64,000 nucleotides of DNA from Craspedostauros australis (taxonomy: Eukaryota; Bacillariophyta; Bacillariophyceae; Mastogloiales; Achnanthaceae), in NCBI GenBank assembly GCA_026770025.1, contig JAMXDE010000088.1, positions 1 through 64,000 of the forward strand, written 5' to 3'. Position 1 is the first letter of the stretch. The number at the start of each line of letters is the position of its first letter. The notes beneath the pieces are model-generated. The model searched no databases. It was given only the letters and a program-made list of their open reading frames with translations, and had not been told where the DNA came from. Of this stretch, positions 4,477-56,629 are shown one piece after another. The position numbers and the translations under genes were made by a program.

Positions 4477-4660
4477 GATCAGTCTTTGAGTGTGGCAGTA
4501 GCAATGAGCATCATGGAGTTGGCAGCCATATGTGCCACGCTCCTGCCATGTCATGCGTGGTGTGGGACGTCTCCTGCCGTTGTTGGATGTGTGACTACAG
4601 CGATCAGAGGTGTTGAGAGAGAGAGAGAGAGAGAGAGAAGCCGGAAGTGGCTGAAAGTGT
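4477..4660 (+). repeat. Single ~195-bp-type satellite monomer at RT 5' end, copy 1
   Basis: Starts gatcagtctttgagtgtgg and continues gagcatcatggag, then gttgttggatgtgtgac, then ggtgttgagagagag. This is the same word order as the last monomer of the array at 15,965-16,130. It abuts the RT relic directly at 4,471-4,477, and the same junction is present at 22,083-22,089 and 56,624-56,630. Confidence 0.8.
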
Positions 4661-5145
4661 GTGTTGTGTGGCAAGTGATGGCAATTTCTGTACATTGCAT
4701 TTTTGGGTGTGTGAGATGTGTGTGTGTGTGGCTTGCATAACGACATGTGAACCGTGCTGACAGTGTTCAAGGAATGTGGGGTGTGTCAATGGGCTGTGTC
4801 CATGGGCTGTGTCCATGGGCTGTGTCCATGGGCTGTGGATGGATATTGGCCAGTGTTTGCTTTTGTGTGATGTGTGGTGATTGATGGCCGTTGCTGTGCA
4901 TTCCATTTGAGCGTACAAGTTGTGTATGGCTAATGGAATTGTAATGAGAGTATGTCAGCCGTTTCACAGTGTGTTCCAACTATGTGTGTGAGTGTGTGCG
5001 AGTGTGTGCGAGTGTGTGCGAGTGTGTGCAAGTGTGTGCGAGTGTGTGCGAGTGTGTGCGAGTGTGTGTGAGTGTCTGAGATGGATATCGGACAGTGTTT
5101 TTGTGTGGTGACTGATGGTAATTTCTGTTCACTGCATGTTTGGGT
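4661..5145. repeat. GT-rich tract with 15-bp and 10-bp tandem repeats, copy 1
   Basis: At ~4,790-4,840 a 15-bp unit, GGGCTGTGTCCATGG, is repeated about four times. At ~4,984-5,075 a 10-bp unit, GAGTGTGTGC, is repeated about nine times with one variant. No coding content. Confidence 0.85.
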
Positions 5146-6465
5146 GTTAGGGTGCTAGGGTGCAATGAATTTCTATCAAGGGTTAGGTTAGGCGATACTT
5201 GCAGGAGTCAGTTGCGCGGTTGGGGGTGGGGTATAGGAATAGATATCGGCCAATGTGTGTTAATGTGTGATTAATTTGTATCAAGGGTTAATGTGTGATG
5301 AATTTGTATCAAGGGTTAGGTTAGGCGATACTTGCAGGAGTCAGTTGCGCGGTTGGGGGTGGGGTATAGGAATAGAAATCAGCCAATGTGTGTTGTATGG
5401 TGAGTGATGGCAAGGGTTAATGGGTGATGAATATGTATCAAGGGTTAGGTTGCGCGCTACTTTTAGGAGTTAGTTGCATGGTTGGGGGTGGGGTATAGGA
5501 ATAGATTTTGGCCTATATGTGTGGTATGGTGAGTGATGGTAAGGGTCAGGGTGTTCTGAATTTGTATCAAGGGTTAGTATGTGATGAATTTGTATCAAGG
5601 GTTAGTTTGGGCAATACTTGTAGCAGTTAGTTGGTTGGTTGGGGGTGGGGTATAGGAATAGATATTGGCCAATGTGTGTTGTTTGGTGAGTGCTGGCAAG
5701 AGTTAGGGTGTTAATGTGTGATGAATAAGTATCAAGGGTTAATCTGTGATGAATTTGTATCAAGGGTTGCGTCGGCAATACTTTTAGGAGTTAGTTGCGT
5801 GGTTGGGGGTGGGGTATAGGAATAGAAATCAGCCAATGTGTGTTGTTTGGTGAGTGATGGTAAGGGTTAGGGTGTTAGGGTGTTAATGTGTGATGAATTG
5901 TATCAAGGGTTAATGTGTGATGAACTTGTATCAAGGGTTAGTTTGGGCAATACTTTCAGGAGTTAGTTGGGTGGTTGGGGGTGGGGTATAGGAATAGATA
6001 TCGGCCAATGTGTGTTGTGCCATGAGTGACGGAAAGGGTCAGGGTGTTATGAATTTGTATCAAGGGTTAGTATGTGATGAATTTGTATCAAGGGTTAGTT
6101 AGGGCAATACTTGTAGCAGTTAGTTGGTTGGTTGGGGGTGGGGTATAGGAATAGATATTGGCCAATGTGTGTTGTTTGGTGAGTGATGGCAAGAGTTAGG
6201 GTGTTAATGTGTGATGAATAAGTATCAAGGGTTAATCTGTGATGAATTTGTATCAAGGGTTGCGTCGGCAATACTTTTAGGAGTTAGTTGCATGGTTGGG
6301 GGTGGGGTATAGGAATAGAAATCAGCCAATGTGTGTTGTTTGGTGAGTGATGAACTTGTATCAAGGGCTAGGGTGTTAATGTGTGATGAATTTGTATCAA
6401 GGATGAATGGGTGATGAATTTGTATCAGTTAGGGTTAGTTGGGGCAATACTTGCAGTAGTTAGTG
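5146..6465 (+). repeat. ~150-bp satellite array, copy 1
   Basis: Eight occurrences of ggggtataggaatag spaced 129-169 bp apart. Each unit carries tgtgatgaatttgtatcaag followed by ggttag, then ggcaatact, then gttagttg and a G-rich tract (ggttgggggtgggg). Short TTAGGG-like runs (gttagggtgttaggg) occur inside the units. Unit length varies because the tgtgatgaa...caagggtta submodule is present one to three times. Confidence 0.9.
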
Positions 6466-17611: not shown

Positions 17612-19217
17612 TGCCGTTAGCGATGGCAATTGATGTTTATTGCATTTTTGGGTGTATGAGTTGTGTTTGGCTTGCAACATCATGAGTGAGCTATGTTCCA
17701 ACCATGTGTCAACCATGTGGACAGTGTGTGCGGTGTTTGGAGTGTGTGCATGTGCTTGGGGGTCGAGATTGGCCAGTTGTTGTTGTGGGTTGAGTGATGG
17801 CCATTCCTGTACAATGCATTTTGGTAGAGTGAGTTGTATATAGCTTGCAGAACTGTGTGTCAACCATTGTCAACCATGTTGTCAGTGTGCAAGGTGGCTG
17901 GAGTGTGTGTATGGGCTGTGACTACATATGGCTCAGTGTGAATTATGTGGTGGGTGATGGAAATGGCTGTGCCTTGCATTTTGGACTATCCGCAGCATGA
18001 ACCTTTATGTGTGAGCCGTATGTGAGCAGTGTGTGAGCCATTTGTGAGCAGTGTGTGAGCAGTGTGTGAGTCATGTGTGAGTCATGTGTGAGCTTGGTAG
18101 GACCAATGGGTTACCTACTTGACAGTTGTTGGAAATCAAGGGTTATAGTCAGCATGAATCTAAGCTGTTTTTAGATCATACCGTTTTAGAACTGTGAGCA
18201 CATCCTCACTCTCACTCTCTTTCTCACTCTCTCTTTCAATTTCAATTTCATTGTTGGCGTTCTCTGTGGTGCCATAGCGAGGCATTGTTGTATTCCTGAA
18301 CATATTCGATGTGTCTTGCTCATGCATCCTCCTGCACCTTCTATCATGCCCTCATCCTGATGCTTCATCGTCCGCATCTGCACACTTGTACCCTTCCACA
18401 TATGTGTGGTAGGGGTCCACAGTCCTGCATGCTATCTTGTCATGTATTTCGGCTCTCGACCTCGTGACATCTCGTTTCCACTTGTTTACGATTGGTGTCA
18501 CCCTCAGTGATGTCCCAAACCTGCGGTCGTAGTGACCCTTTCTGAAGTTCCAAACCTGCAGTTGTTTTGTCCGTAGGGGGGGCGCATGCTGTCCCCCCAG
18601 ATGGAATGAAGCTCTCGCCCACTGCCCTGCTGACGTCTTTGTTTGTGTCGTTGTCTTGTTTGGGTTAGTGTCAGGACATCCTGTCGAGCGTCATCATGGT
18701 TGTTCTTGATTCATGAGGACGGGCTGTTTTTCCTGGTTCACGAGTGTGATGAGTAGGACTCGAATGTGTGATGGATAGTGGACAATCATGTGATGAATAA
18801 TGTCCAAAGGTGTGATGAATAGTCTCTGAACATGTGACGAATAATCTTGGGAGGTGCAGCAATCATGGCCTTTGAGTTGAACGCTGTCTGTCATCGTTTG
18901 TAAGAAGAGAAGGGTACAACGAGGAATGCAGGTTTGAGTAGTAGTGTTCATCACAGTGTCAAATGAGTGCTATTGGGATGGTTGTTGAGCATGCTTGCAT
19001 GTACAACCATGTCAATCCATGCTTGTTAAGTATTGGTTTGATGTCATGCACAGACTATGATTTGGCATATAGGTGTTGGCCCTTATGTAGCGAATGCTAT
19101 CACGAGTGTGGCTTCTGCCTTCCAACATCAAATCAGTCCACCAGTTTGCACTGGATATTGATGACCCATTCCAAACTGTTTTTGGGCACTTCTTGATTCC
19201 CCCAATAGTACCACCCA
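17612..19217. other. Block head copy 2, no gene recognised
   Basis: Homologous to 1-1,605. It differs from that copy by numerous one-base indels, and no open frame is kept in both copies. Confidence 0.6.
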
Positions 19218-34165: not shown

Positions 34166-34186
34166 TGTGAGTATCACAGTTGATGG

Positions 34187-43684: not shown

Positions 43685-43930
43685 GAGCTTGGTACAAGCG
43701 ATGTGTTACCTTCATGACGGTGTGAAGAGTGGTGTGTGCGTGCAGTCGCCTCTAACTTGCGTTATTGTTTTCTTGCGCCATGTGAACAGTGTGTGAGTCA
43801 TGTGTGAGCTTGGTACAAGCAATGTGTTACTTACTTGACGGTGTGAAGAGTGGTGTGTGCAGACGATAGCCTCTAACTTGCGTTATTAGTTTTCTTGCGC
43901 CATTTGAACAATGTGCGTGATGTGTGCGCA
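43685..43930 (+). repeat. ~121-bp tandem duplication
   Basis: gtgtgagcttggtacaagc, then gacggtgtgaagagtggtg, then cctctaacttgcgttatt, then ttttcttgcgccat occur twice, about 121 bp apart and with few differences. It lies downstream of the YR gene. Confidence 0.85.
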
Positions 43931-44093
43931 GTTCAAGAGCTGTGTTTCAGTGTGAGGTGAACAGTGTGCTAGCCTTTTGAGCTGTGTGGTGAGATGGTAA
44001 TCGATATATGTATTATTGTGCTATGATGTAGATGTGGAAAGTGTGATGCATGGACCTCGCTGAGACTGCTTCATGGTTGCTGAGTGTGTGCAT
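43931..44093. other. Short region downstream of the YR gene
   Basis: Not repetitive. On the minus strand it would hold the 3' untranslated region and termination signals of the YR gene. I see no clear polyadenylation word. Confidence 0.4.
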
Positions 44094-47000
44094 TCACTCG
44101 TCATCTTCAGTTGCAGAAGCACGGATTTCTGTAAGCTCTTGATTCAAAGTGGTCACACTCTTCTCAAGGCCTTGGAGCCTCTTGAGGACGTTCTCCTTCT
44201 TGGTGTTCTGCTCATTCAACTTTAGATTGGCGGTTTTGAGGCCAACACATTGCTTTTGGAGCATCTCGATCATGAGACGCTGTTTCTTCATGGTTTGCTG
44301 TGATGTGTCTTCGTCACAATCGCAATCAGTGCGTGAGGCATCACTGTGTCCAACAAAACCACGTTTGGATGGAGATACGGCAGCTGTTGGAGCAATGGAG
44401 GGGAAGGGAGGCGGTGCGGCGACTGGTGCAAAGACAAAGGGAGAAGTGTTGGGCGATGTAGGCATCTGAGGTGGTGCTCTGTGAGTGCTGTTTTCATGAG
44501 ATGCGGTCATTTGAGATCCTTGATTTTTGTGTAGACGAGATGGAACGCTGCTGTGCTTGACAGGCAATGCAGATTCAGCAGCTGGTGCTGGTTGTGGCAT
44601 TGATGGTGTCCTGTGGGCGTCCTTGTGAGTCTTCCTGTACTTGGAGGGCGATACACACACAGATGCAGCTGCTGGTGGTGCCTTGCGGGTTCCCTTGCGC
44701 ATGAAAGGCGATGTGGCTGGTGCTAGTGGCGCTGCTGGTGGTGCCTTGCGGGTGGGTTTGCGCGTGAAAGGCGATGTTGGTGGTGCTGGTGCTGGTGTTG
44801 ATGGTGTCCTGCGGGCGTCTGTGTGAGTCTTCCTGTACTTGGAGGCCGATACACACGCAGATGCAGCTGCTGGTGGTGCCTGACAAGTATTCTTACGGGT
44901 GACAGGCCATGAAGATGCAGCAGCAGCTGCTGGTGGTGCCTTGCAGGTTCCCTTGCGCGTGAAAGGCGACGTTGGTGGTGCTGGTGGCGCTGCTGGTGGT
45001 GCCTTGTGGGTGTTTGTACGCGTGAAAGGCGATGGAGCTGTTGCAGCTGTTGCAGCTAGTGCTGATGGTGCTGATGGTGCCTTGCAGGCGCCATTTTCCG
45101 TGAAAGGTGATGTGGCTGGTGCTGGTGGCGTCTTGCAGGTGTTCTTGCGCATGAAAGGCGATGTTGGTGGTGCTGGTGGCGCTGCTGCTGGTGCCTTGCG
45201 TGTGGTTTTGTGCGTGAAAGGCGATTTGGCTGGTGCTGCTGGTGCCTTGCAGATGTCCTTGCACGTGTCCTTGCGCGTGAAAGACGATGTTGGTGGTGCT
45301 GCTGCTGCTGCTGCTGTTGGTGTTGGTGGTGCCTTGTGGATGTCCTTGCGCGTGTCCTTGCGCGTGAAAGGCGATTTGGCTGGTGCTGCTGGTGCCTTGC
45401 GGACGTCCTTGCGCGTGTCCTTGCGCGTGAAAGGCGATGTGGCTGGTGCTGTTGGTGCTGCTGCTGTTGGTGCTGTTGGTGCTGTTGCTGTTGGTGCTGT
45501 TGGTGCTGTTGGTGCTGTTGCTGTTGGTGCTGTTGCTGATGGTGCCTTGCGCGTGTCCTTGCGCGTGAAAGGCGATGTGGCTGGTACTGGTGGCACTTCT
45601 GGTGATGCCTTGCAGATATCCTTGTGCATATCCTTGTGCGTGAAAGGCAATGTGGCTGGTGCTGGTGGCGCTTCTGGTGGTGCCTTGCTGGTGTCCTTGC
45701 GCGTGAAAGGCAATGCAGATGCAGCTGTTGTTGGCACTGGTACTCCTGGTGGCGTTGGTGCTGGTGGCACCTTGTCCGTGTCCTTATGGATTGTCTTGTG
45801 CGAAGTTTGTTGCTCTTGCACAAACAAAGACTCAGTGGGCAAGGAACTGGAAGCTGGCTCACTGTCTCCATCATTGCTGCAATCCTGAGCACTGGTGTCA
45901 TCGTTGACAAGCATGTCTGTGCCATGGCTGTGTCCAGTTGCATTGCCTTCATTGCTTGTATTGGAAAGCTCAACCCATTCATTGTCGTCTCTGGCTAAAT
46001 CCATATGTTCCCAAGAATAATCCAAAAAGCGCCCACGACTGCGTCTGGTGTTTCTGGGGCGTCTGGTGCAGAAGGGACAACCTGCGGATCCTATCTCTGG
46101 TTCGAAGTTCCTGTTGCCTGTGAGATTGTTGTTGCCAATGCCATGTCCGCTGTCACCAACAATGTGACCAACATTGTGACCGACAATGTGGCCCATGCTT
46201 TCACTGTCATTGACACTGACAGTGTCAATGACATTGAGATGGTGATTGTCACGGCCATTGTCACTGTCATGGTCATGGTCACGGACATTTTGATGGCTAT
46301 TGTCGCTGCCATGGCCACTGTCACCCACATTGTTGGTGTCATCGTCTTCTTCCTTGTCAGAAGCATCATCTTCCTTGTCAGAGGTGTCGTAGACTGGCCT
46401 GGCTTGATTCTTGCTGTCACCCTCATTGTTGTCATCCTCGTCATTGTCATTGTCATTGTCATTGCTGTCATCGCTGTCATTGCCATCATCGCCGTCATTG
46501 CCATCATCGTCGTCCTTGTCGTCCTCGTCATCATCATCCTCGTCCTCTTCATCATACTCATTTTCATCATTATCATCATCATCATCATTGTTGTCTTCGT
46601 CCTTGTCATCATCCTCACTTTCGTCATCGTCATCATTGCCATCATTGACATCATTGCCATCATCATCAGATGCATCGTCATCAGATGCATCATAGACTGG
46701 TCCTCTTTGAATCTGGCTGTCATCCACATCGTTGTTGTCGTCGTCCTCCTCCTCCTCGTCATCAGACGCATCATAGACTGGTCCTCTTGGAAGCTCCTCG
46801 TCAGCAGCATGTGGTCCTGCATCATAGAAGGCTTGTTCATCAATGTTTCCCCCATGCTTCTTGCAGTAGTCAATCATTCCAAGCTGAGTATCGGTCAATT
46901 TTTCTGCTTTGTATCGGATGCGACCAACCACAGCAATGCCAGCAGCACGTGGATCGAGGCGGTTGGCTGTGGCTTGGGCAAAGAGACGCAAATTGGTGGA

Positions 47001-48713
47001 CTCAAGTGCATTGAAACTGGTCCTTGGCTTCTCCATTTGATTGTGTTCCTCCTCTGGTCCCAACCGAGGAAGCTCAAAGTACTTGATCACATGCTCAGAG
47101 GCTTCCATCTTTGTGTTGGGACGCAGCTCACCAGTATTTATTTTCTTCAAGAGCTTGTTGACCTTGCCAATGGAAAGTTCTGAGGTCATCAGCAGGAAAC
47201 GGACAGCCCTGGCCAATGACACCATGGGGTCTTGCTGATTCTCGGACTTGAGAGCAATGCCCATCTTCTTGATGCTCTCTCCAAGCAAATTGTGTTCATC
47301 GAGGCGGCGGGTCAACATTTGGAGCCAGTATGCAGGGATGCCATTATCCTTGATCTTCTTCGTGGTGTATCCACACGGGTTTTGGGGGTCAAGCCAGTCA
47401 ATAAATTGAATGACATGCTCCCGCATCTCTGGGGTCATGGGGCTGCTGGACTTGAGCAGGTGAGGCCTCACAATGGGTTGAAGCTTCCCCTTGAGTTCTG
47501 GATGGAGCTGCTCAACTGTCAGTTCTGACATGTCGTCAATCTGACCCACATACATGTCAGCTCGGTCGGAGAGACTGCGGAAGTAGAGGCGCATTGCATT
47601 GGAAGTTGTGGTGTAATCCCCAATGATGCGAGCATTGGCAACACCAGAGGATATTGGCAGTTTGTGCAACTTGGCCTTGCACATTTCATCATTGATGCGG
47701 CCTGTGCGAGGCGAGTGGGCAGAGAAGAACCTCTTGGGATACCCTGCAAGGAGGCAGAGCTTGCATGTGATGTTGTTGATCCTTTCGGTGCTTGCAACTC
47801 CAAAGAGCTTGTCCGGATGCTTCCAAATCTGGTTTCTGTGGCTTTTGAGGAACCTTGCCATTGCCACTGAAGCTTCCTTGGTTAGCACAGCCTCTCGCGG
47901 TGCCATGTCTGTTTCAGCCTTCTTCTGGGAGGCAAAGTAGACGATGTAGCGCTTGGTCTTGTGGTCATATTTTGGCCATTTCATTGCCTTGCCCACTGCA
48001 GCCTTTCCTCTTGCACCTGTCTCGAAGAGGAAGTAGAGAAGAGCAATGTCACGGTACCCATTTGGTGTTGGGTGTGCCGCAAGCTGTAGACGCCGGATGT
48101 CAGGGAGGGTGATTGGCTCTGCTCGTTGCACGTTCTGTGATGGCCTGATGCAGATCCGCTTGAGGTTCATGTAAACCTCGGCAAAGTGTTCAGAGTTCTC
48201 TCCAAGCTGCTTGAGGCCCGCAGCCGCGTTGTAGATGTTGGTCCAACCCTTGAAGCGTTGAGTGATCTCATGGAAGGCCATCCGAGCATCCTTGGCCACG
48301 ATGGTCAGCAGGCTTATTGTTGGTACGCGATAGAGTACCACCCAGGTGATGTAGAGTGCCAGACAGGAACCCAATGCATCATTGGGGAACATTGTCTCCC
48401 ATGTTTCCTGCTTGGTGAAGTCCACAGGATCCCGGTTGGGATTGTTGTCTGCTCGGTGGTCTTTGTAGACAGAATCCTCCCAGTTGCTGTGCTCAAAGAA
48501 GTCATCAATCAGCTTGCGCATCCTGCGGAGTTCTTGCTTCTCCTTGGGGCGCAGATAGATTTCTGGATCAACCCTCACTGTGTTGAAGAAGCCAAACATG
48601 CTGTTAGTGCCTGGAAAGAGATCATCCAGCAACTCACGCATGATATCATCATCCCTTGGGTTGGCATTGTTGGCTTTTTCAGCCGTGTGGGCATTGGTGT
48701 TGCGGTCAGTCAT
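44094..48713 (-). CDS. Large tyrosine recombinase-like protein with low-complexity tail (1,539 aa)
   Basis: The only long intact gene in the window. I start it at the first ATG (MTDRNTNAHT, 48,711-48,713); the frame is open 126 bases further up but without an ATG. The YR-like domain spans about residues 200-380: Arg in FETGARGKAAV (~235), a Lys-rich segment SQKKAETDMAPRE, the HxxR box in SAHSPRTGR (~335), and the putative nucleophile Tyr in NAMRLYFRSL (~377). A long Asp/Glu/Asn run follows (~640-795). After that comes GCPFCTRR, then about fourteen repeats starting SPFTRKDTRKAPP (~980-1,360, Pro/Ala/Thr/Lys-rich), and a C-terminal coiled coil (KKQRLMIEMLQKQCVGLKTA onward). YRs make and rejoin DNA breaks through the tyrosine. 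The tails suggest chromatin or DNA binding and oligomerisation. It could be a Crypton-type transposase or a domesticated gene; I see no known accessory domain. Confidence 0.75.
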   Translation of the reverse strand: MTDRNTNAHTAEKANNANPRDDDIMRELLDDLFPGTNSMFGFFNTVRVDPEIYLRPKEKQELRRMRKLIDDFFEHSNWEDSVYKDHRADNNPNRDPVDFTKQETWETMFPNDALGSCLALYITWVVLYRVPTISLLTIVAKDARMAFHEITQRFKGWTNIYNAAAGLKQLGENSEHFAEVYMNLKRICIRPSQNVQRAEPITLPDIRRLQLAAHPTPNGYRDIALLYFLFETGARGKAAVGKAMKWPKYDHKTKRYIVYFASQKKAETDMAPREAVLTKEASVAMARFLKSHRNQIWKHPDKLFGVASTERINNITCKLCLLAGYPKRFFSAHSPRTGRINDEMCKAKLHKLPISSGVANARIIGDYTTTSNAMRLYFRSLSDRADMYVGQIDDMSELTVEQLHPELKGKLQPIVRPHLLKSSSPMTPEMREHVIQFIDWLDPQNPCGYTTKKIKDNGIPAYWLQMLTRRLDEHNLLGESIKKMGIALKSENQQDPMVSLARAVRFLLMTSELSIGKVNKLLKKINTGELRPNTKMEASEHVIKYFELPRLGPEEEHNQMEKPRTSFNALESTNLRLFAQATANRLDPRAAGIAVVGRIRYKAEKLTDTQLGMIDYCKKHGGNIDEQAFYDAGPHAADEELPRGPVYDASDDEEEEDDDNNDVDDSQIQRGPVYDASDDDASDDDGNDVNDGNDDDDESEDDDKDEDNNDDDDDNDENEYDEEDEDDDDEDDKDDDDGNDGDDGNDSDDSNDNDNDNDEDDNNEGDSKNQARPVYDTSDKEDDASDKEEDDDTNNVGDSGHGSDNSHQNVRDHDHDSDNGRDNHHLNVIDTVSVNDSESMGHIVGHNVGHIVGDSGHGIGNNNLTGNRNFEPEIGSAGCPFCTRRPRNTRRSRGRFLDYSWEHMDLARDDNEWVELSNTSNEGNATGHSHGTDMLVNDDTSAQDCSNDGDSEPASSSLPTESLFVQEQQTSHKTIHKDTDKVPPAPTPPGVPVPTTAASALPFTRKDTSKAPPEAPPAPATLPFTHKDMHKDICKASPEVPPVPATSPFTRKDTRKAPSATAPTATAPTAPTAPTATAPTAPTAAAPTAPATSPFTRKDTRKDVRKAPAAPAKSPFTRKDTRKDIHKAPPTPTAAAAAAPPTSSFTRKDTCKDICKAPAAPAKSPFTHKTTRKAPAAAPPAPPTSPFMRKNTCKTPPAPATSPFTENGACKAPSAPSALAATAATAPSPFTRTNTHKAPPAAPPAPPTSPFTRKGTCKAPPAAAAASSWPVTRKNTCQAPPAAASACVSASKYRKTHTDARRTPSTPAPAPPTSPFTRKPTRKAPPAAPLAPATSPFMRKGTRKAPPAAASVCVSPSKYRKTHKDAHRTPSMPQPAPAAESALPVKHSSVPSRLHKNQGSQMTASHENSTHRAPPQMPTSPNTSPFVFAPVAAPPPFPSIAPTAAVSPSKRGFVGHSDASRTDCDCDEDTSQQTMKKQRLMIEMLQKQCVGLKTANLKLNEQNTKKENVLKRLQGLEKSVTTLNQELTEIRASATEDDE

Positions 48714-48881
48714 GGTGTGATGTACCGTGCTGTGATATGCTGTGTTGTGTTTTGTGTTTTTTGTGTGTTTGTGTTGTGATGCAACTTGGTGTGGCTTGTT
48801 GCGATATGTTGTGATGTGTTCCAGTGTGACGTGTTGCAATGGTGGTTCAGCTAGGATCAGCTTCGCTTGTTGTGGGCGAGA
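48714..48881 (-). promoter_or_regulatory. Putative upstream region of the YR gene
   Basis: 168 bases of tgtgttgtgatg-like sequence between the ATG and the first 102-bp repeat. I see no TATA box. Given its position it should hold the leader and core promoter. Confidence 0.3.
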
Positions 48882-49790
48882 GATCGATGCAGGGGATCAC
48901 AGTCAATCTCCTGTTGATGGGACAACTGATTCTGGCTCACACAGGTGACGCAATTGGTCTGTCTTTGCTTGTTGTGGGCGATAGATCAATGCAGGGGATC
49001 ACAATCGATTTCCTGTTGATGGGGCAAGTGATTCCAGCTCACACAGGCAATGCAATTGGTCTGTTGTTTGCTTGTTGTGGGTGAGAGATCAATGCAGGGG
49101 ATCACAGTCAGTCTCCTGTTGATGGGGCAAATGATTCCGGCTCACACAGGTGATGCAATTGGTCTTTTGTTTGCTTGTTGCGGGCGAGAGATCAATGCAG
49201 GGGGATCACAGCCAATCTCCTGTTGATGGGACAACTGATTCTGGCTCACACAGGTGATGCAATTGGTCTGTCTTTGCTTGTTGTGGGCGAGAGATCGATG
49301 CAGGGGATCACAATCAATCTCCTGTTGATGGGGCAACTGATTCTGGCTCACACAGGTGATGCAATTGGTCTGTTGTTTGCTTGTTGAGTTTGAAAGATCG
49401 ATGCAGGGGATCACAGTCAGTCTCCTGTTGATGGGGCAAGTGATTCCAGCTCACACAGGTGATACAATTGGTCTATCTTTTGCTTGTTGCGGGCGAGAGA
49501 TCAATGCAGGGGATCACAATCAATCTCCTGTTGATGGGACAACTGATTCCAGCTCGCAAGGGTGATGCAATTGGTCTGTTGTTTGCTTGTTGCGGGCGAG
49601 AGATCAATGCAGGGGATCACAAACAATCTCCTGTTGATGGGACAACTGTTCTGGCTCACAAGGGTATTGCAATTGGTCTGTTGTTTGCTTGTTGCGGGCG
49701 ATGGATCGATGCAGGGGATCACAATCAATCTCCTGTTGATGGGGCAAGTGATTCCGGCTTGCAAGGGCGTTGCAATTGGGCTGTCAGAGT
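48882..49790 (+). repeat. ~102-bp tandem array upstream of the YR gene
   Basis: Nine occurrences of gatcratgcaggggatcac spaced about 101-105 bp apart (48,882; 48,983; 49,087; 49,190; and so on). The rest of each unit reads caatctcctgttgatgggg, then caactgattctggctcacac, then aggtgatgcaattggtctg, then tttgcttgttg and gggcgagag. Units differ by scattered substitutions. Confidence 0.92.
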
Positions 49791-49995
49791 GCAGAATGCT
49801 GGTGAGTTTTGTATTGGTGCAAGTTGGTGTGGTGTAGAACTTATGAGCATGAGAGTTGTGATGATCCCCATGAATTGGATATCTGTGGCAAGTGAGGGAA
49901 GGGGGAGGAAGGTGGCAGTTCTGGTTCTTCATTGTTTAAAATTCCATAGCATGAGTGCGTCAACCTGCAAAATCTGGCACAGGATGCAGAACAAT
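49791..49995. other. Unique spacer between two tandem arrays
   Basis: About 200 bases with no repeat or gene that I recognise. Confidence 0.6.
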
Positions 49996-50930
49996 CGTGC
50001 TTGATGCAGCAGTGTGTGGATCAATGGCAATTGACCAAGCATGATGTTGATCATTGACACCTGCTCATGTAGGAATCAGTACAATTGTCGTTGATCAAGT
50101 AGGACACGGATGAATTGTACCTGGCCAAGTAGCATGCAGATGAATTCCACTTCACCAAACAGGACGTCAATCAACTACACCTGCTCAAGTAGGAATCAGT
50201 AGAGTCGTGCGTGATCAAGCAGGACACGGATGAATTGTACCTGGCCAGGTAGCATGCAGATGAATTCCACTTCACCAAACAGGACGTCAATCAACTACAC
50301 CTGCTCAAGTAGGAATCAGTAGAGTCGTGCGTGATCAAGCAGGACACGGATGAATTGTACCTGGCCAGGTAGCATGCAGATGAATTGCACTTCACCAAAC
50401 AGGATGTCAATCAACTACACCCGCTCAAGTGGGAATTGGTACAATCGTGCGTGATCAAGTAGGGCGCGGATGAATTCTACTTCACCAAACAAGATGTCAA
50501 TCAACTACACCAACTCAAGTAGGAATCAGTACAATCGTGCTAATCAAGTAGGGCACGAATGAATTGTACCTGGCCAAGTAGCATGCAGATGAATTCCACT
50601 TCACCAAACAGGATGTCAATCAACTACACCCGCTCAAGTAGGAATCAGTACAGTCGTGCGTGATCAAGTAGCACACGGATGAATTCCATTTCACCAAACA
50701 GGACGTCAATCAACTACACCAACTCAAGTAGGAATCAGTCTAATCGTGCTGATCAAGTATCACGCAGATGAATTGTACCTGGCAAGGTAGCATGCAGATG
50801 AATTCCACTTCACCAAACAGGACGTCAATCAACTACACCAACTCAAGTAGGAATCAGTCTGATCGTGCTTGATCAAGTATCACGCAGATGAATTCCACTT
50901 CACCAAACAGGATGTGGAACCGGATGCATC
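49996..50930 (+). repeat. 120-bp higher-order repeat of four 30-bp subunits
   Basis: Positions 50,161-50,280 and 50,281-50,400 repeat with a period of exactly 120 bp. Each 120-bp unit is four 30-bp subunits with a shared skeleton (about ..CAAGTAGGA....ATGAATT..ACCT): one reads gatcaagcaggacacggatg, the next ggccaggtagcatgcagatg, the third caccaaacaggacgtcaatc, the fourth gctcaagtaggaatcagtag. Later units lack one or two subunits. Confidence 0.9.
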
Positions 50931-53503
50931 CGAGTGTGGCCACGGCCTAGTTGATCAGTTTTTGCCTTCGGACGATTCTCCTTCGCGTCATGGAAAAAAC
51001 TCACAATCACCCGCGAATCACAGCAACCTCGATCGATGATCGCCAACGCGAAGTGCTCATGCTCGCTATTTCTCCTTTGGTGTGGTGTGGCAAAGCATGT
51101 TCGCTTCGCCGGTTCTCCATTGTCTTGCAGTGACGTGACATGATGCGACATGGCGATTTCTTGATCGCGTAAGGGGTAACAGGTAACGGCACCCACAACA
51201 CAGCGCGAACCGATCGAGGCAGCACAAAATGCGTCATCATGTTGATCCACGCACGTCTCCAACACACACAGAGCCCATCACCATTTTTATTGTGTTGTGA
51301 ACATTGCTGTATCGGAATAGACCACCACGCTTCCAACACACGCAAAGCACATCATCGTGTTCGCGACCCTCCAATTGGTTTGTTCATGCGAATTCGCGTC
51401 GCCACACGCACATTTTTCCCCGCCAAACATGCATTTTCAGCACAGCTGATGCACAACAACGTGCAAACAAGGATGTTCCACAGCATCCATACTAAATCCG
51501 ACTACACCATCGTGACCGCGACCTCCCACTTAGTCTCACTGCACTAGCACGCGTAATTTTCAGTTCATATCCAGAATACGACGGGCTGTTTTTGTTGATA
51601 GGTGTGCAAAAATGCATCAAAAGTCATGTTCTCGATGTGTCAGCACAAATCTGATTGCCTCGTAGTGACCGCCACCTCTCAATTGGTCTATCATATCAAC
51701 GAGCACAATTAACAACTCATTTTACAAAATACTGGTATGCGCGTTGACACTACATTTTTGACTATAACTCAAGACTGAGACATATTCAGGGCATGGCGAT
51801 ATCGGCACTGAGCTCGTGGTGGTCGTTTTAGTCGGTTGGGTGTATTACGTACGAAATAGCATGTGAAGTAAATATGCGCCCATTCCAGTACTGCTTGGTA
51901 CCGTCAACGACGTAGTCGCAATTTGGAGCGATGGATGAATGAGCTTCTCGCATGGTCCCACGCTCGTGGCGTCCCACACGACAATGATTTGATTGTTGTC
52001 GATCGGGCATGCCAATGATGTTGCATGGTCATTGTCGTTGCAATCAAATCAACCAAATCAATGCGAAACAATGCGAAACAATGCGAAACAAGCGTGCGCG
52101 ATCACCGACCAGACGAAGCTCCTTCTCGTTCCGTCGCGTGGTGGTGTGCAAGACAGGCGCGTCGTCACGATGTTCCACAAGATCTCTTGTTCTGAGCGGA
52201 GAAGTTGGCATCATACGAGGTTGTGCACGAGCGAGAAACAGCAGAACACGCAACGACCTGCCAACCACGACAACGCTCGTCGCGGATCAGAAAATGTTGA
52301 TTTTGTGCACACACACAATTTCCCTTTGTGTGTTGTGTTGTGTTGCGACGGCCAAAAATCACTTCTCCGATTTGAGTTTATTTTGTGTGATGTGATGTGA
52401 TGTCGTTGTTCGTCACCCGGACACCGGTACTCACATCGCTTTGTGTCAGTGGGAGCAGGGTGAGAGTTGCGACACCTATCTTGGCGTCATGATTGCAAGC
52501 ATCGACTCGAGTTTTCGTGCTACTGGTTGCCGTTATATTGGGCGTTAATTCAGTCGGACTGGTCAAACTACCGACACGATTGGATTTGTAGCTGACTCCT
52601 GGATCACGAGAGTGCGGGGATGATCGTGATTGAGTAGCGGTGGTCGTTTTACAAACGTATGACTGGCTGGATTGAGTCGAGTGAGTCCAATTTATAACGG
52701 TAAAATAACGTCTGTTCGCGACTTAGCGCTAGCTCTTGTGTCGCACCTGATGAACAAGTGCTGAAAGGTGGACAGGTCGCGTCACAGGCTTGCATGGTGT
52801 CGCAGCGGCCCTGCTTAACGTTGTTTGGGTGGCCAAGGATCAGCGGGGGGTGCTTGTTGTGGTGGTTGCAGGGCATTGGGCAAAAACAGCGAGAATAAGC
52901 GCATAGTAGTGAACGCGCATAAACTGTCGAATGTTTGTGCGTACCAACGAGCACCATGGAGGAGCCAGTCTGATGTTCAACCCTTGTATCATGTCCATAG
53001 ACATTCATGGGGAGTGTGTGTGCATTGTTGGTTGTGTGAAAAATGGTCGTTGTGGCACTTGTTTTGCATGTGGCAAAAACAGTGAGAACGCGCGTGCAAT
53101 GTTGGATGTTTGTGCGTACCAACGAGCATCATGGAATTGTTTGGCGCATTTGTCACTCATCTACCATGTGTGTGCGTGTGTGTGGAACTAAGTGGGTGTA
53201 TGTAACTAGGTGGGTGACAATTGCTACTGTGTGAAGTGGAACTGCAACCAGGGGAATTCGAAGAACAGGAATCAAGCATCAAGAGAATCAGAGTAGCACG
53301 ACAGGCCCTGCCTGGAACGACCAAGAGCGTCCCACATTGATGTAGCAAAGCCTGAGAGAGTAGAGTCAGGGACCCAATCTAGCAATAGAGTGAGAGGCCG
53401 TCAGCATTCTCCCATGGCAACACCTTTTGTGCCCCTGAATGGCTGCCGATCAGCATGCAGACATCAGCTTGTGGCTGGCACCAATACGATAGACCCTGTG
53501 CAA
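50931..53503. other. Low-repeat region, no gene recognised
   Basis: Richer in CpG and poorer in GT runs than its surroundings. Short frames exist on both strands (for example 51,993-52,400 plus and 52,649-53,122 minus), but none resembles a protein I know and none is long. Small repeats: three copies of gcgaaacaat at 52,063-52,092, and a two-copy ~190-bp tandem repeat at 52,857-53,145 (caaaaacagygagaa and tgtttgtgcgtaccaacgag). The segment just above 53,300 may hold a decayed tail of the RT element. Confidence 0.5.
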
Positions 53504-55988
53504 TCAAAGCACGCTCTTGGCGGATCTGGAGCGGCACATCCTAGCGTCTGTGTTGCAGATACGGATCTTGAAGATTGCATTGGACCCCCGCTTCCAGAAT
53601 CCGTGAATGACAACATCTCCTTGCAGCTCAGGATCAACCTCTGCAGCCAACCTCTGCAGCACTGCCACCAGCACCTCGGCTGTTCCAACTAGTATGGATC
53701 AATGGTTCGTTGGAGACAGAGGAAGGGTTGATGGCCTGGCTGCAAAGCTGGACCCACTTGCCGCATTCGTCAGTATGGCAAAGCAGAACGAGCCCTCCCT
53801 TCTTGCAGGAGCAGGCATGTTCCACAGAGAACCGCTCGCTGCAGCCATTGCATCGCTCAGGCAGCGACGCTGGGTGCAAGCCAAAGCAGATGCAGAGGAT
53901 GTTACAGAATTCATCAGCCAATAAATCGGTCCCATTGGGCTTGCTGGGCATGGCCGTGAGCCACGCCCCAGTGGATTTGGAGCGCTTGATGCGTCGAACA
54001 GCAAGGTTGCTGGAGTTGGTGATGATGTCTGCGAGGATACCAATACCATCCTCAGCCTCCTCGTTTGGCCTTGTGCCGCTTGCGTCTCGCACTCCTGGCA
54101 GTGTTGACGAACCGCTCCACATTGAGATTGGACCTTTGCACCACGGACTGGCTGAGGTGATCCATGGCATGGACGGATGCGGAGTGGTTCTCAGCCGCTG
54201 CAGCTGTGGGATTGAGGGATCCCAAGCCCAGCTTGCTTGGCTGGCAGGCCAAGGAGCTGACTCAATCCAGCCACCTCCGACACATCCGCATCCAGGAGGG
54301 CTGGGAGGAAGGTGCTGGCAATGGAGGCATTGACAGGGCGGAAGCAATCGCCAGCATCTTCTCCAAGTTGGTGCAGGCCGATTGGTCGTTCTTGCAGTGC
54401 ATTGGAGAGGCCAGCAAACGCAGTCTGTGGGAACTGCTTCGCCACCTTCGCTGGATCATGGATGCTGTGGACTCATTGCTCCATCTGAGGCGCAATCCAG
54501 GCCTCCCTGGAAACGTCAGACCTGACAAATCCGCCAACATAGCAGTGGTCATTGTGGTGGCTGAAGCCAAACTTGGCGAATGCGGTATGGTAGGCAGCAT
54601 CCTCATCCGCCTTGCAGCAGACAAACACACTCTTTGAAGGCTCAGGGAAGTATCCACAAGCTGGACCCTGCTGGGCCAGCGGGTGAGTAGCGGTGGCAAT
54701 ACAGTCCACAGGGCCCACCATGGCAGCATCGTTGGCATACCATGGCTGGAGCATGCTGGGGACGGTCTCCTGTAATGATGCTGCAAGTGGCAGGAGAGCA
54801 ATCTCCTAGAGAACCATTGAAAGAGGATCCCCTTGAGCCACGCCTGCCCAGCAGTGCCAAACAGTCCAGAGCATGGCCTTGCAGCTCAGATCGTCAACTC
54901 TGTTGCGAGCATCGACGAGCAGCATGCCCCATGGGGTAGAGGCTGCCTGGTGGCTGTCGTCACCGTCGTCGCCGTTGTCGCCACCGCCAGTGTTCATCGC
55001 ATGATCGCCTTCGCTGGAAGAGGCAGCTGGGGCGCCAGATTCGGTGCTGTCACTGCCACTGGCGAGCGCGGCATCGTTGCTTGGGCCGTCGTCGCCGTCG
55101 TGGAACGCATGTTGCACCGTGTGGATGGCACTCCCGATGCCTGCTGGCAAGCTGGCACACAGGTTCAGGTTGTTGCAGGCAGCAGTGGCACGACGACCAA
55201 TGGAAGCAAGGACGCATTTCGCCATGACACGACAGAACACTTCGCCAATGCCGAGAGGACGCACACCTGGACGCTTGTCCAGAGCAATGAGGTGGCACGC
55301 CATCATGGCGCAGTAGGCAGCCCATGGAGGATGGGAGTTGGAGAGCCAGTTGGTCCAAGCAGCAACCTCCTCGCGGAGATGCTTGGACTTGCTGCCAAAA
55401 CCGCAGGCACCAGTTTCCCAGATGGACAGCATCAAGACCGCCCTGACCGGACCAGCCTCCCCAGAGAGTTTGGAAGCAACTGATCCAACCACCTCTGCAG
55501 TGATCTTGACAGGGACAGGGGTGGGAGCAGGACTGTCATATGGCTCGAATGCTCTTGTCCCGTCGCCACTGATGTCAGAATCACGTATGACATGACAGGA
55601 TGCCCGAGTCTCAGTGCCTCCTCCATGGGCAGAGCAGACTTGGTGTCGATTTCTGCTGGCAAGAGGAGATCACTACCTTCACAAGATGTGTGTGAAGGTG
55701 CGAACCGCAGCATATGCAGACAACCAGAGAGAACCTTTGAGTTGAAGGCGCGGGCATGTGGCACATTGTCGCAGGTGCCACCAGATGGAATGGCATGCTG
55801 GCGCAGCTCTGACTCCGTGGCCTCAACCAGTGCGGCAAACTTGCTGGTCTCTCACAAATCCATGCAAGAGGGCAGCCGCTTCCGTACTTTGCTGCGACCA
55901 GGCACACCAGGGGTGGTCTGGAGGGTCACTGCCACAGGCAACAGCGGTTGCTCCGAGTTCCACAGCCGGTTGCGAACCCCCCTGAGCT

Positions 55989-56025
<37 letters not shown>

Positions 56026-56624
56026 GTGAAGGAATCTGTGGCCAATGCAACAATGTGGGACCAAGTATTGTTGTGGGGAGAACGCAATGACGATGCGAGC
56101 CCAGCACTGCTGCCACACAGCATCTCTGCCAACACCACCATGGAGGTGGGAGCCGTCATTGTTGTTGTTGTTGTGGGCATGGTCGCCGTACACCTGATCC
56201 AGCTTGACATCTGCAGGAGGTGCGGCATAGCCAGGGAGATCTGTGCCCTTGCCAGGAGTCACAATGTTGTCAGGAGCGAGCACAGGCCCGTCATGGCAAC
56301 GGAGAGGCTCTGGCAGTGGTGGCAGCCTTGGATCGAGCAGGATTGGATCCCTCAGGTGCAGGAGGGACCTCCACATAGTCAGTGGGAACAAGAGCGGCTG
56401 TTGGCACCGCAGCTGCCTCAGGGACGGGTGGAGGAGGGGGGCGTGAGCTGCTGGGGGAGCAGCAGTATCAGCATCAGTGGTCTGGTTGGTGGCACCACAA
56501 TTGCCTGTGTTGTTGGCATTGTTGGAACCGTTGCTGCGGCTGTGATTGTTGATGACAACGCCACTGTTGTCAGCACCACTGCAGTATGGATTCACCACAG
56601 CAGGATGGGCAGGAAGGAAGGCAT
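53504..56624 (-). pseudogene. RT with C-terminal CCHC/restriction-like endonuclease region, third and most complete copy
   Basis: Non-LTR-type RT relic. After the same N-terminal half as at 3,130-4,471 it continues through the junction into true RT sequence: KRPGVRPLGIGEVFCRVMAK, NLNLCASLPAGIGSAIHTV, VDARN, then AQGDPLSMVL. A TAG at 54,806 and the catalytic box YANDAAM follow (YADD expected; Asn codon 54,731-54,733), then GYFPEPSKS, FPQTAFAGLSNALQ, a finger CNGCSERFSVEH with SCKKGGLV (~53,800-53,870), and finally GDVVIHGFWKRGS with IFKIRI, ending at TGA 53,504-53,506. About 25 residues are missing before AQGDP. Other breaks are a TGG-to-TGA at 55,852 and frame changes near 55,495, 54,210 and 54,050. 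The three frameshifts of copies 1 and 2 are also here. Inactive. Confidence 0.82.
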
Positions 56625-56629
56625 ATCAT

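Follow-up and report, generated by a model that had tools for sequence, protein, structure and literature searches.

What kind of gene stays open over 1,539 codons near a chromosome end where the neighbouring elements are broken? The question is raised by YR1, a gene with resemblance to tyrosine recombinases (YR) found in the first 64,000 nucleotides of contig JAMXDE010000088.1 of the diatom Craspedostauros australis (assembly GCA_026770025.1); this whole stretch is referred to here as the window, and the contig carrying it as C86. Few tyrosine recombinases of eukaryotes belong to no retroelement, and little is known of their boundaries or activity. With two maintained-looking full-length copies and a gene that retains only the N-terminal domain, this chromosome-end family offers a test case for the shaping of subtelomeres versus recruitment by the host. 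YR1 is, with moderate confidence, best read as a Crypton-like YR gene without a recognised reverse transcriptase (RT), resident in subtelomeres, whose copies would have spread mainly by block copying and whose frames appear to be selected. Among the matches listed in a literature search (titles and abstract openings), none dealt with a subtelomeric RT-less YR gene family.

The YR1 frame, its predicted catalytic domain and signs of selection

The uninterrupted frame described in the initial annotation of the window was recovered with its coordinates and assigned to the minus strand, which that annotation had omitted; plus-strand frame 1 over the same interval contains many stops. From stop to stop the frame spans 1,600 codons, a length beyond chance, since 200 dinucleotide-preserving shuffles of positions 43901-49000 gave a maximum of 372. 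The acidic run, basic Pro/Ala repeats and coiled coil proposed for the C-terminal part can be seen in the translation, the coiled coil by eye only, the repeats appearing as Pro/Ala/Arg/Lys units and the acidic run differing between copies by whole codons (Table 1). The N-terminal helical region (aa, amino acids, 57-208) is the likely core DNA-binding domain, as judged by its position, the full-length model being of low confidence there; it also occurs without the catalytic part in a gene on contig C52 (C52:314205-316847). At E up to 0.01 the conserved 68-codon segment is matched by the two full-length copies only, and the C-terminal tail has four genome matches, all of them YR1 itself, its copy on contig C35 or two 3' fragments. 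Rfam and tRNA scans of the 64-kb window gave no match.

Table 1. Position of YR1, its parts and associated repeats in the window
Feature	Position	Strand	Basis or remarks
YR1 gene	44094..48713	minus	1,539 codons, ATG 48713, TGA ending 44094, single frame
N-terminal helical region, aa 57-208	48090..48545	minus	homology; likely core DNA-binding domain
Predicted tyrosine recombinase catalytic domain, aa 183-416	47466..48167	minus	AF2 model, Foldseek, VIA-align, PHROG, Pfam, residues
Post-YR region, aa 417-650	46764..47465	minus	tblastn; partial matches in each of the three identity groups; full-length model uninformative
Acidic Asp/Glu-rich run (approximate limits)	46134..46740	minus	visible in translation
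Conserved FEPEIGSAGCPFC...RRPRNTRR segment, 68 codons	45903..46106	minus	copies differ by 1 nonsynonymous and 4 synonymous changes
Basic Pro/Ala repeats (SPFTRKDTRKAPPA-like, units of ~21 aa)	44529..45731	minus	translation, repeat analysis
Charged C-terminal tail of 143 aa, conserved; heptad-like pattern judged by eye	44097..44525	minus	sequence comparison
103-bp tandem array upstream of YR1	48865..49784		9 copies; on C35, 35 anchor matches
30/120-bp tandem array, further upstream of YR1	49972..50915		also on C35
Shared block	43837..56236		versus C35:1380-17217 (reverse); pieces 83-93% identity
Second-YR-lineage relic	53611..56628	minus	DNA match to 3.1-4.1 and 20.7-21.8 kb

All the motifs named in the initial annotation (FETGARGK, SAHSPRTGR, IGDYTTTSN and NAMRLYFRSL) are present in the translation, placing the Arg, HxxR and Tyr arrangement at R235, K264/K265, H333, R336, D366 and Y377. 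In the part of PMC4381057 drawn on here, the tyrosine recombinase pentad is given as R, K, H, R, H/W plus a nucleophilic Y, represented by R173, K201, H289, R292 and W315 in Cre and by R191, K223, H305, R308, W330 and Y343 in Flp. The step from R to K is 29 residues in YR1, 28 in Cre and 32 in Flp, and the distance from R to H is 98, 116 and 114, respectively. With Y324 as the nucleophile of Cre, the HxxR-to-Y distance is 41 in YR1, 32 in Cre and 35 in Flp. The spacing of D366 to Y377 is not odd in itself, as its 11 residues fall between the 9 of Cre and the 13 of Flp; what is odd is the Asp, in the place usually held by His or Trp. It occurs in 12 of the 14 aligned family rows that cover the site and is therefore a family trait. 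The remaining residues (R235, K264/265, H333, R336 and Y377) are kept in both full-length copies.

The identity of YR1 as a tyrosine recombinase is supported, with limits, by the predicted fold of aa 183-416 (AlphaFold2, AF2, model compared by Foldseek and VIA-align), which places the predicted catalytic domain in this superfamily; the proposed identity was not carried by the sequence profile, which scores below the Pfam cut-off. Also, the domain matches a PHROG integrase profile (E 3e-4). A profile-profile comparison (hhalign) against phage integrases, comprising lambda, Cre, HP1 and 20 of 80 from IMG/VR, aligned FETGAR onto the integrase TGxR motif, but at a score that is not significant (see below). 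In a scan of the whole of YR1 at E up to 10, Pfam returned PF00589 and Snapin_Pallidin only. The PF00589 search of the C. australis genome itself gave no match, which makes this profile unusable for counting YRs here. Six exact peptide patterns of YR1, which reach close relatives only, gave no match in viral contigs and three pattern matches, none confirmed, in bacterial and archaeal contigs.

The second full-length copy, on C35, shows that YR1 is not alone as an intact gene, and allows the substitution pattern of the frame to be evaluated. Over 677 codons the two copies differ by 28 synonymous and 30 nonsynonymous changes, with a synonymous rate (dS) of 0.066, a nonsynonymous rate (dN) of 0.019 and a ratio of 0.29 (binomial p 8e-6, transitions uncorrected); the ratio for the last 143 codons is 0.38. 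Two flanking stretches show 6.4% and 5.7% substitutions, close to dS. Each of the 14 coding indels has a length divisible by three, versus 1 of 10 and 5 of 10 in the flanking stretches. Truncated copies have ratios of 0.46-0.91, and when they are compared with the full-length pair over the same 435 codons the difference is significant in one of three pairs (Fisher p 0.02; others 0.33 and 0.22). The earlier suggestion that selection may maintain YR1 is thus supported by frame length, by the dN/dS of 0.29 and by the in-frame indels between the two copies, and the full-length frames show signs of maintenance as judged from these patterns.

Several observations weigh against a selected, functional recombinase. 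Foldseek returned no match under E 1e-3, and whole-model TM-scores over the first 27 ranks are 0.37-0.43. The predicted local distance difference test (pLDDT) is below 50 at model residues 81-88 (K264/265) and 143-214 (H333, R336, D366 and Y377), leaving R235 as the only catalytic residue in the better-modelled part; a full-length-type model of aa 1-649 has a mean pLDDT of 39.6 and no usable structural match. The match to PF00589 has an E of 0.14 for the full length and 0.007 for the domain, with 16.6 bits versus a cut-off of 27.1, chance competitors are near-equal (Flu_NP 0.028, PSME4_C 0.026), and the profile finds no match in three other scanned family members. In the comparison with phage integrases the score of 17.0 is not significant, at least 10 of 50 column shuffles scoring higher (top 38.2) and the reversed control reaching 22.0. 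Catalytic residues are lost in some relatives, with G for R235 on contig C74 and R336 replaced by L in one group C row and by Q in one group B row (the groups are defined below), and the Asp in the His/Trp place could mean that the enzyme is altered or inactive. As for selection, the dN/dS of aa 201-400 (0.146) is based on only 6 changes, and the excess of in-frame indels is partly explained by the location of most of them in whole-codon repeats, which favour multiples of three without selection.

Distribution of the family and proposed copying of the subtelomeric block

In the 74.8-Mb genome (90 contigs, TTAGGG telomeres), ribosomal protein L3 comes closest, by a narrow margin, to Protein Data Bank chains taken to be from Chaetomium and Neurospora, and nine loci (10 rows) match the chitin synthase family PF03142 at 204-531 bits, although this family also gives matches in 4 of 14 bacterial controls; on their own these markers would suggest that the host is probably a fungus. 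The occurrence of YR1 relatives in the genome was assessed by tblastn of aa 1-650. The 29 rows recovered collapse into 18 loci, which were grouped on location and degree of identity and not on a tree. Group A comprises five loci with 89-100% identity (C86, C35, C74:4475, C53:373716 and C20:1154210), group B seven loci (14 rows, 36-63%) and group C five (9 rows, 34-42%), while the locus at C52:315648 matches in the N-terminal domain only (43%). Only the C86 and C35 copies are full-length, the other 16 loci being truncated or broken, including the intact gene on C52 that holds the N-terminal domain alone. The 3' end of group A occurs by itself at two more loci (C86:72424-73839 and C34 near 4557-5261), and the three other group A copies share one match breakpoint (window 47410, ~aa 435). 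Each of these truncated copies forms a head-to-head pair with a group B copy (C74:889-5782, C53:373716-378304 and C20:1154210-1157716); in the C74 and C53 pairs the frame runs past the breakpoint into ~160 codons of other sequence. In the group C copy L024, the frame opens with a stretch that, by eye, is read from a 74-bp subtelomeric repeat.

The YR1 family is concentrated near chromosome ends. The end of C86 is occupied from ~75,170 onwards by a (TTAGGG)n array, ~26 kb from YR1, C35 begins with a telomere array, and C3, C24, C34, C46, C52, C53 and C20 are telomere-capped at the end nearer their family copies. Thirteen of the 18 loci lie at most 85 kb from a capped end and the C52 locus at ~95 kb; three more are on C74, at most 23 kb from an uncapped contig end, and the C28 locus lies on an uncapped contig, with more than 230 kb on each side of it. 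On capped contigs all nine copies of groups A and C have their 5' end towards the telomere, and all four of group B are in the opposite orientation. Such uniformity is the outcome expected of block copying between ends, and no probability is attached to it because the loci are not independent.

The two full-length copies lie within a block common to both chromosome ends, which holds YR1, the 103-bp and 120-bp arrays, DNA without long frames and the relic of a second YR lineage. The best YR-type inverted repeat of the 103-bp unit has 11-bp arms agreeing at 7 of 11 positions and is equalled or beaten by 475 of 500 shuffles, for which reason no recombination site is claimed in it. Also, 6,986 bases at the end of C34 are 99.7% identical to C86 68181-75170.

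A common 3' boundary at 43837 was considered as an element end and rejected, since the edge is due to an 809-bp insertion in C35 and the linker homology continues beyond it. This insertion (C35:17218-18026), whose inverted ends agree at 15 of 18 bases, shows a 6-bp duplication, GACAGT, and may be a solo long terminal repeat or a small DNA element. In window 18127-18848 the same linker is followed by a related stretch.

The search for target-site or terminal repeats of YR1 proposed in the initial annotation found none, the only clear 6-bp duplication being that of the C35 insertion. With shared flanks, and with an edge at 43837 that marks no element end, both full-length copies go back to a single block. 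Nothing here shows movement of YR1 on its own; it is the subtelomere that explains its setting, with a telomere ~26 kb away and a block common to another chromosome end.

Close to the telomere of C86, a frame likened by eye to a retrotransposon gag (C86:74873-75171, ATG 74900; L044, L045) is cut directly by the telomere array, and C34 continues past this point. The junction would mark either the healing of a broken chromosome or an exchange of ends in the recent past.

Possible origins and roles of YR1

According to the favoured explanation, a Crypton-like YR gene resident in subtelomeres, the N-terminal helical domain would bind DNA, and R235, K264/265, H333 and R336 together with the nucleophile Y377 would cut and rejoin it by way of a covalent 3'-phosphotyrosine intermediate. 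YR1 may be tethered to chromatin by its acidic and H1-like basic repeats, and its tail may multimerise the protein. Copies would spread chiefly through copying of the whole subtelomeric block between chromosome ends, with selection keeping the full-length frames. Catalytic activity, a DNA target and a role for the tail are inferred, and selection would act either for spread of the element or for the host.

YR1 could instead be a transposase, belonging to a Crypton-like DNA transposon that is mobile to this day and favours subtelomeres, with selection acting for transposition and circles integrating by YR crossover. We regard this as unlikely, yet as the rival to be taken most seriously. It would account for a multi-copy family with degraded, more distant groups, for the want of a recognised RT beside YR1 and for a group B copy placed well inside its contig (C28:234040-236057 of 730,146). 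As in Cryptons, which are YR elements of fungi, oomycetes and animals, the YR is the only recognised enzyme, no RT is seen beside it and copies are degraded, and host genes derived from Cryptons are known. In the portion of PMC3212892 available to us, Cryptons are described as having no terminal inverted repeats and 4- or 6-bp direct repeats only, so that their ends are hard to see. However, no element ends, terminal direct repeats or target duplications were found for YR1, the edge at 43837 belonging to the GACAGT-flanked insertion of C35, and the two full-length copies, which share flanks, are therefore not independent insertions. YR1 also differs from Cryptons in its Asp in the His/Trp place and in copies of 1,539-1,609 aa with acidic and H1-like repeats, located near ends inside a shared block. 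Nor was GCR1_C, the DNA-binding domain that follows the YR in CryptonF elements and presumably part of the Pfam library scanned, found in the whole of YR1 at E up to 10, a setting at which HMMER filters drop most matches above 0.1. The same scan, with the same limit, gave no match to DUF3435, which we also take to be in the library; the DUF3435 YRs known as Starship captains (Pezizomycotina) are fungal YRs thought to move DNA, and YR1 differs from them in this respect and in that no cargo-bearing giant element was seen.

Less probable again is a domesticated host gene at chromosome ends that serves chromatin or end protection, for instance, and has ceased to recombine DNA. The constraint on the frame and its dN/dS, the Asp in the His/Trp place and a long tail of chromatin-like character, the conserved segments of which have no matches other than YR1, the C35 copy and two 3' fragments, are consistent with such a role, as is the presence in the same genome of an intact 881-codon frame with the N-terminal domain alone. 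The sections of PMC3212892 consulted derive yeast Cbf2/Ndc10 from a Crypton and report that domesticated DUF3504 genes have lost the catalytic site. Unlike the latter, both full-length copies of YR1 keep R, K, HxxR and Y, and there are two such copies only, in a region that exchanges readily.

The 881-codon frame itself (C52:314205-316847, minus strand; L031 58-2700) consists of the N-terminal domain and a long charged remainder that is coiled-coil-like by eye. ALOG proteins are presented as having recruited a YR DNA-binding domain in the excerpt of PMC3537659 used here, and the C52 gene looks like a comparable recruitment. It resembles ALOG and Cbf2/Ndc10 in the reuse of a YR part without the catalytic site and differs from them in that a Pfam scan of its protein at E up to 1 gave nothing.

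An improbable extension is that subtelomeres encode their own recombinase: tethered by its H1-like tail, YR1 would act on sites in the repeat blocks, such as the 103-bp arrays, exchanging or amplifying ends, and its frame would be kept because the blocks that carry it spread or stabilise ends. Telomere-linked helicase (TLH) genes of fungi are enzyme genes near telomeres that are copied with chromosome ends. Their likeness to YR1 is one of working only, as an end-copied enzyme gene, and they encode a helicase, not a recombinase.

The coexistence of two YR lineages, proposed on the basis of a YR at 1.6 and 19.2 kb that differs from YR1, was borne out, as protein searches with YR1 and with the second lineage return disjoint loci. 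In the window the second lineage is split over frames, and Pfam, scanned at E up to 0.1, returned nothing for its products P0001 and P0002 (19.4-22.1 kb). Relatives at 29-32% identity occur on C25, C4 and C50. That on C25 (C25:432001-437500; L158, L060) is a longer element with RT-like, RNase H-like and YR-like frames in this order on one strand, none of them matched by Pfam, the RT-like frame included. From what we take to be RT and RNase H motifs, on which the DIRS-like naming rests, the second lineage is, with moderate confidence, probably of DIRS type.

A DIRS-like lineage in the same subtelomeres and genome makes it conceivable that YR1 is the YR gene of a DIRS- or TATE-type retroelement whose RT part has been lost in these copies, a view for which TATE, described in the part of PMC6681497 relied on here as a YR retroelement inserted in telomeric hexamer repeats, offers a precedent. 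The missing Pfam match to an RT proves little in this regard, because the RT-like frame of the C25 element escapes Pfam as well. We nevertheless think this origin quite improbable, given that the searches with YR1 and the DIRS-like YR give disjoint loci and that no RT-sized frame exists between 48.9 and 53.6 kb in the window, the one copy scanned. The likeness to TATE (telomere-associated transposable element, of kinetoplastids) and DIRS is that of a YR gene at chromosome ends; both are retroelements, and TATE lies inside the telomeric repeats, whereas YR1 has no recognised RT and is located kilobases inward.

Last, that YR1 is a relic left intact by chance after a recent subtelomeric duplication would suit the truncated or broken state of the other loci and the codon-sized repeat units, which push indels toward multiples of three, but is very improbable given that a divergence of 6.6% at synonymous sites and 6.4%/5.7% in the flanks leaves time for decay, with dN only 0.019 and both frames open from end to end.

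Neighbouring elements and repeats of the window

The description of the neighbouring elements as broken holds for those looked at, namely the Copia-type, long interspersed nuclear element (LINE)-like and second-YR-lineage sequences. Copia-type coding sequences at 24.3-28.3 kb are divided among frames, their matching copy at 6.7-10.7 kb being judged by coordinates only, and the LINE-like frames at 58.7-63.7 kb are split as well; the LINE RT (58.7-66.3 kb) lies outside the shared block. The window also contains closely matching segmental repeats, one pair 17.6 kb apart (~4.4-11.6 and 22.0-29.2 kb) and another 6.8 kb apart (30.6-34 and 37.4-40.8 kb), which carry a broken Copia-type element and satellite arrays. 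Between positions 34183 and 35646 a 74-bp repeat with 22-bp and 327-bp periods was found, the relatives of which occur near the ends of many contigs and also open the frame of the group C copy L024; this tract may be what is left of an old chromosome end, now interstitial.
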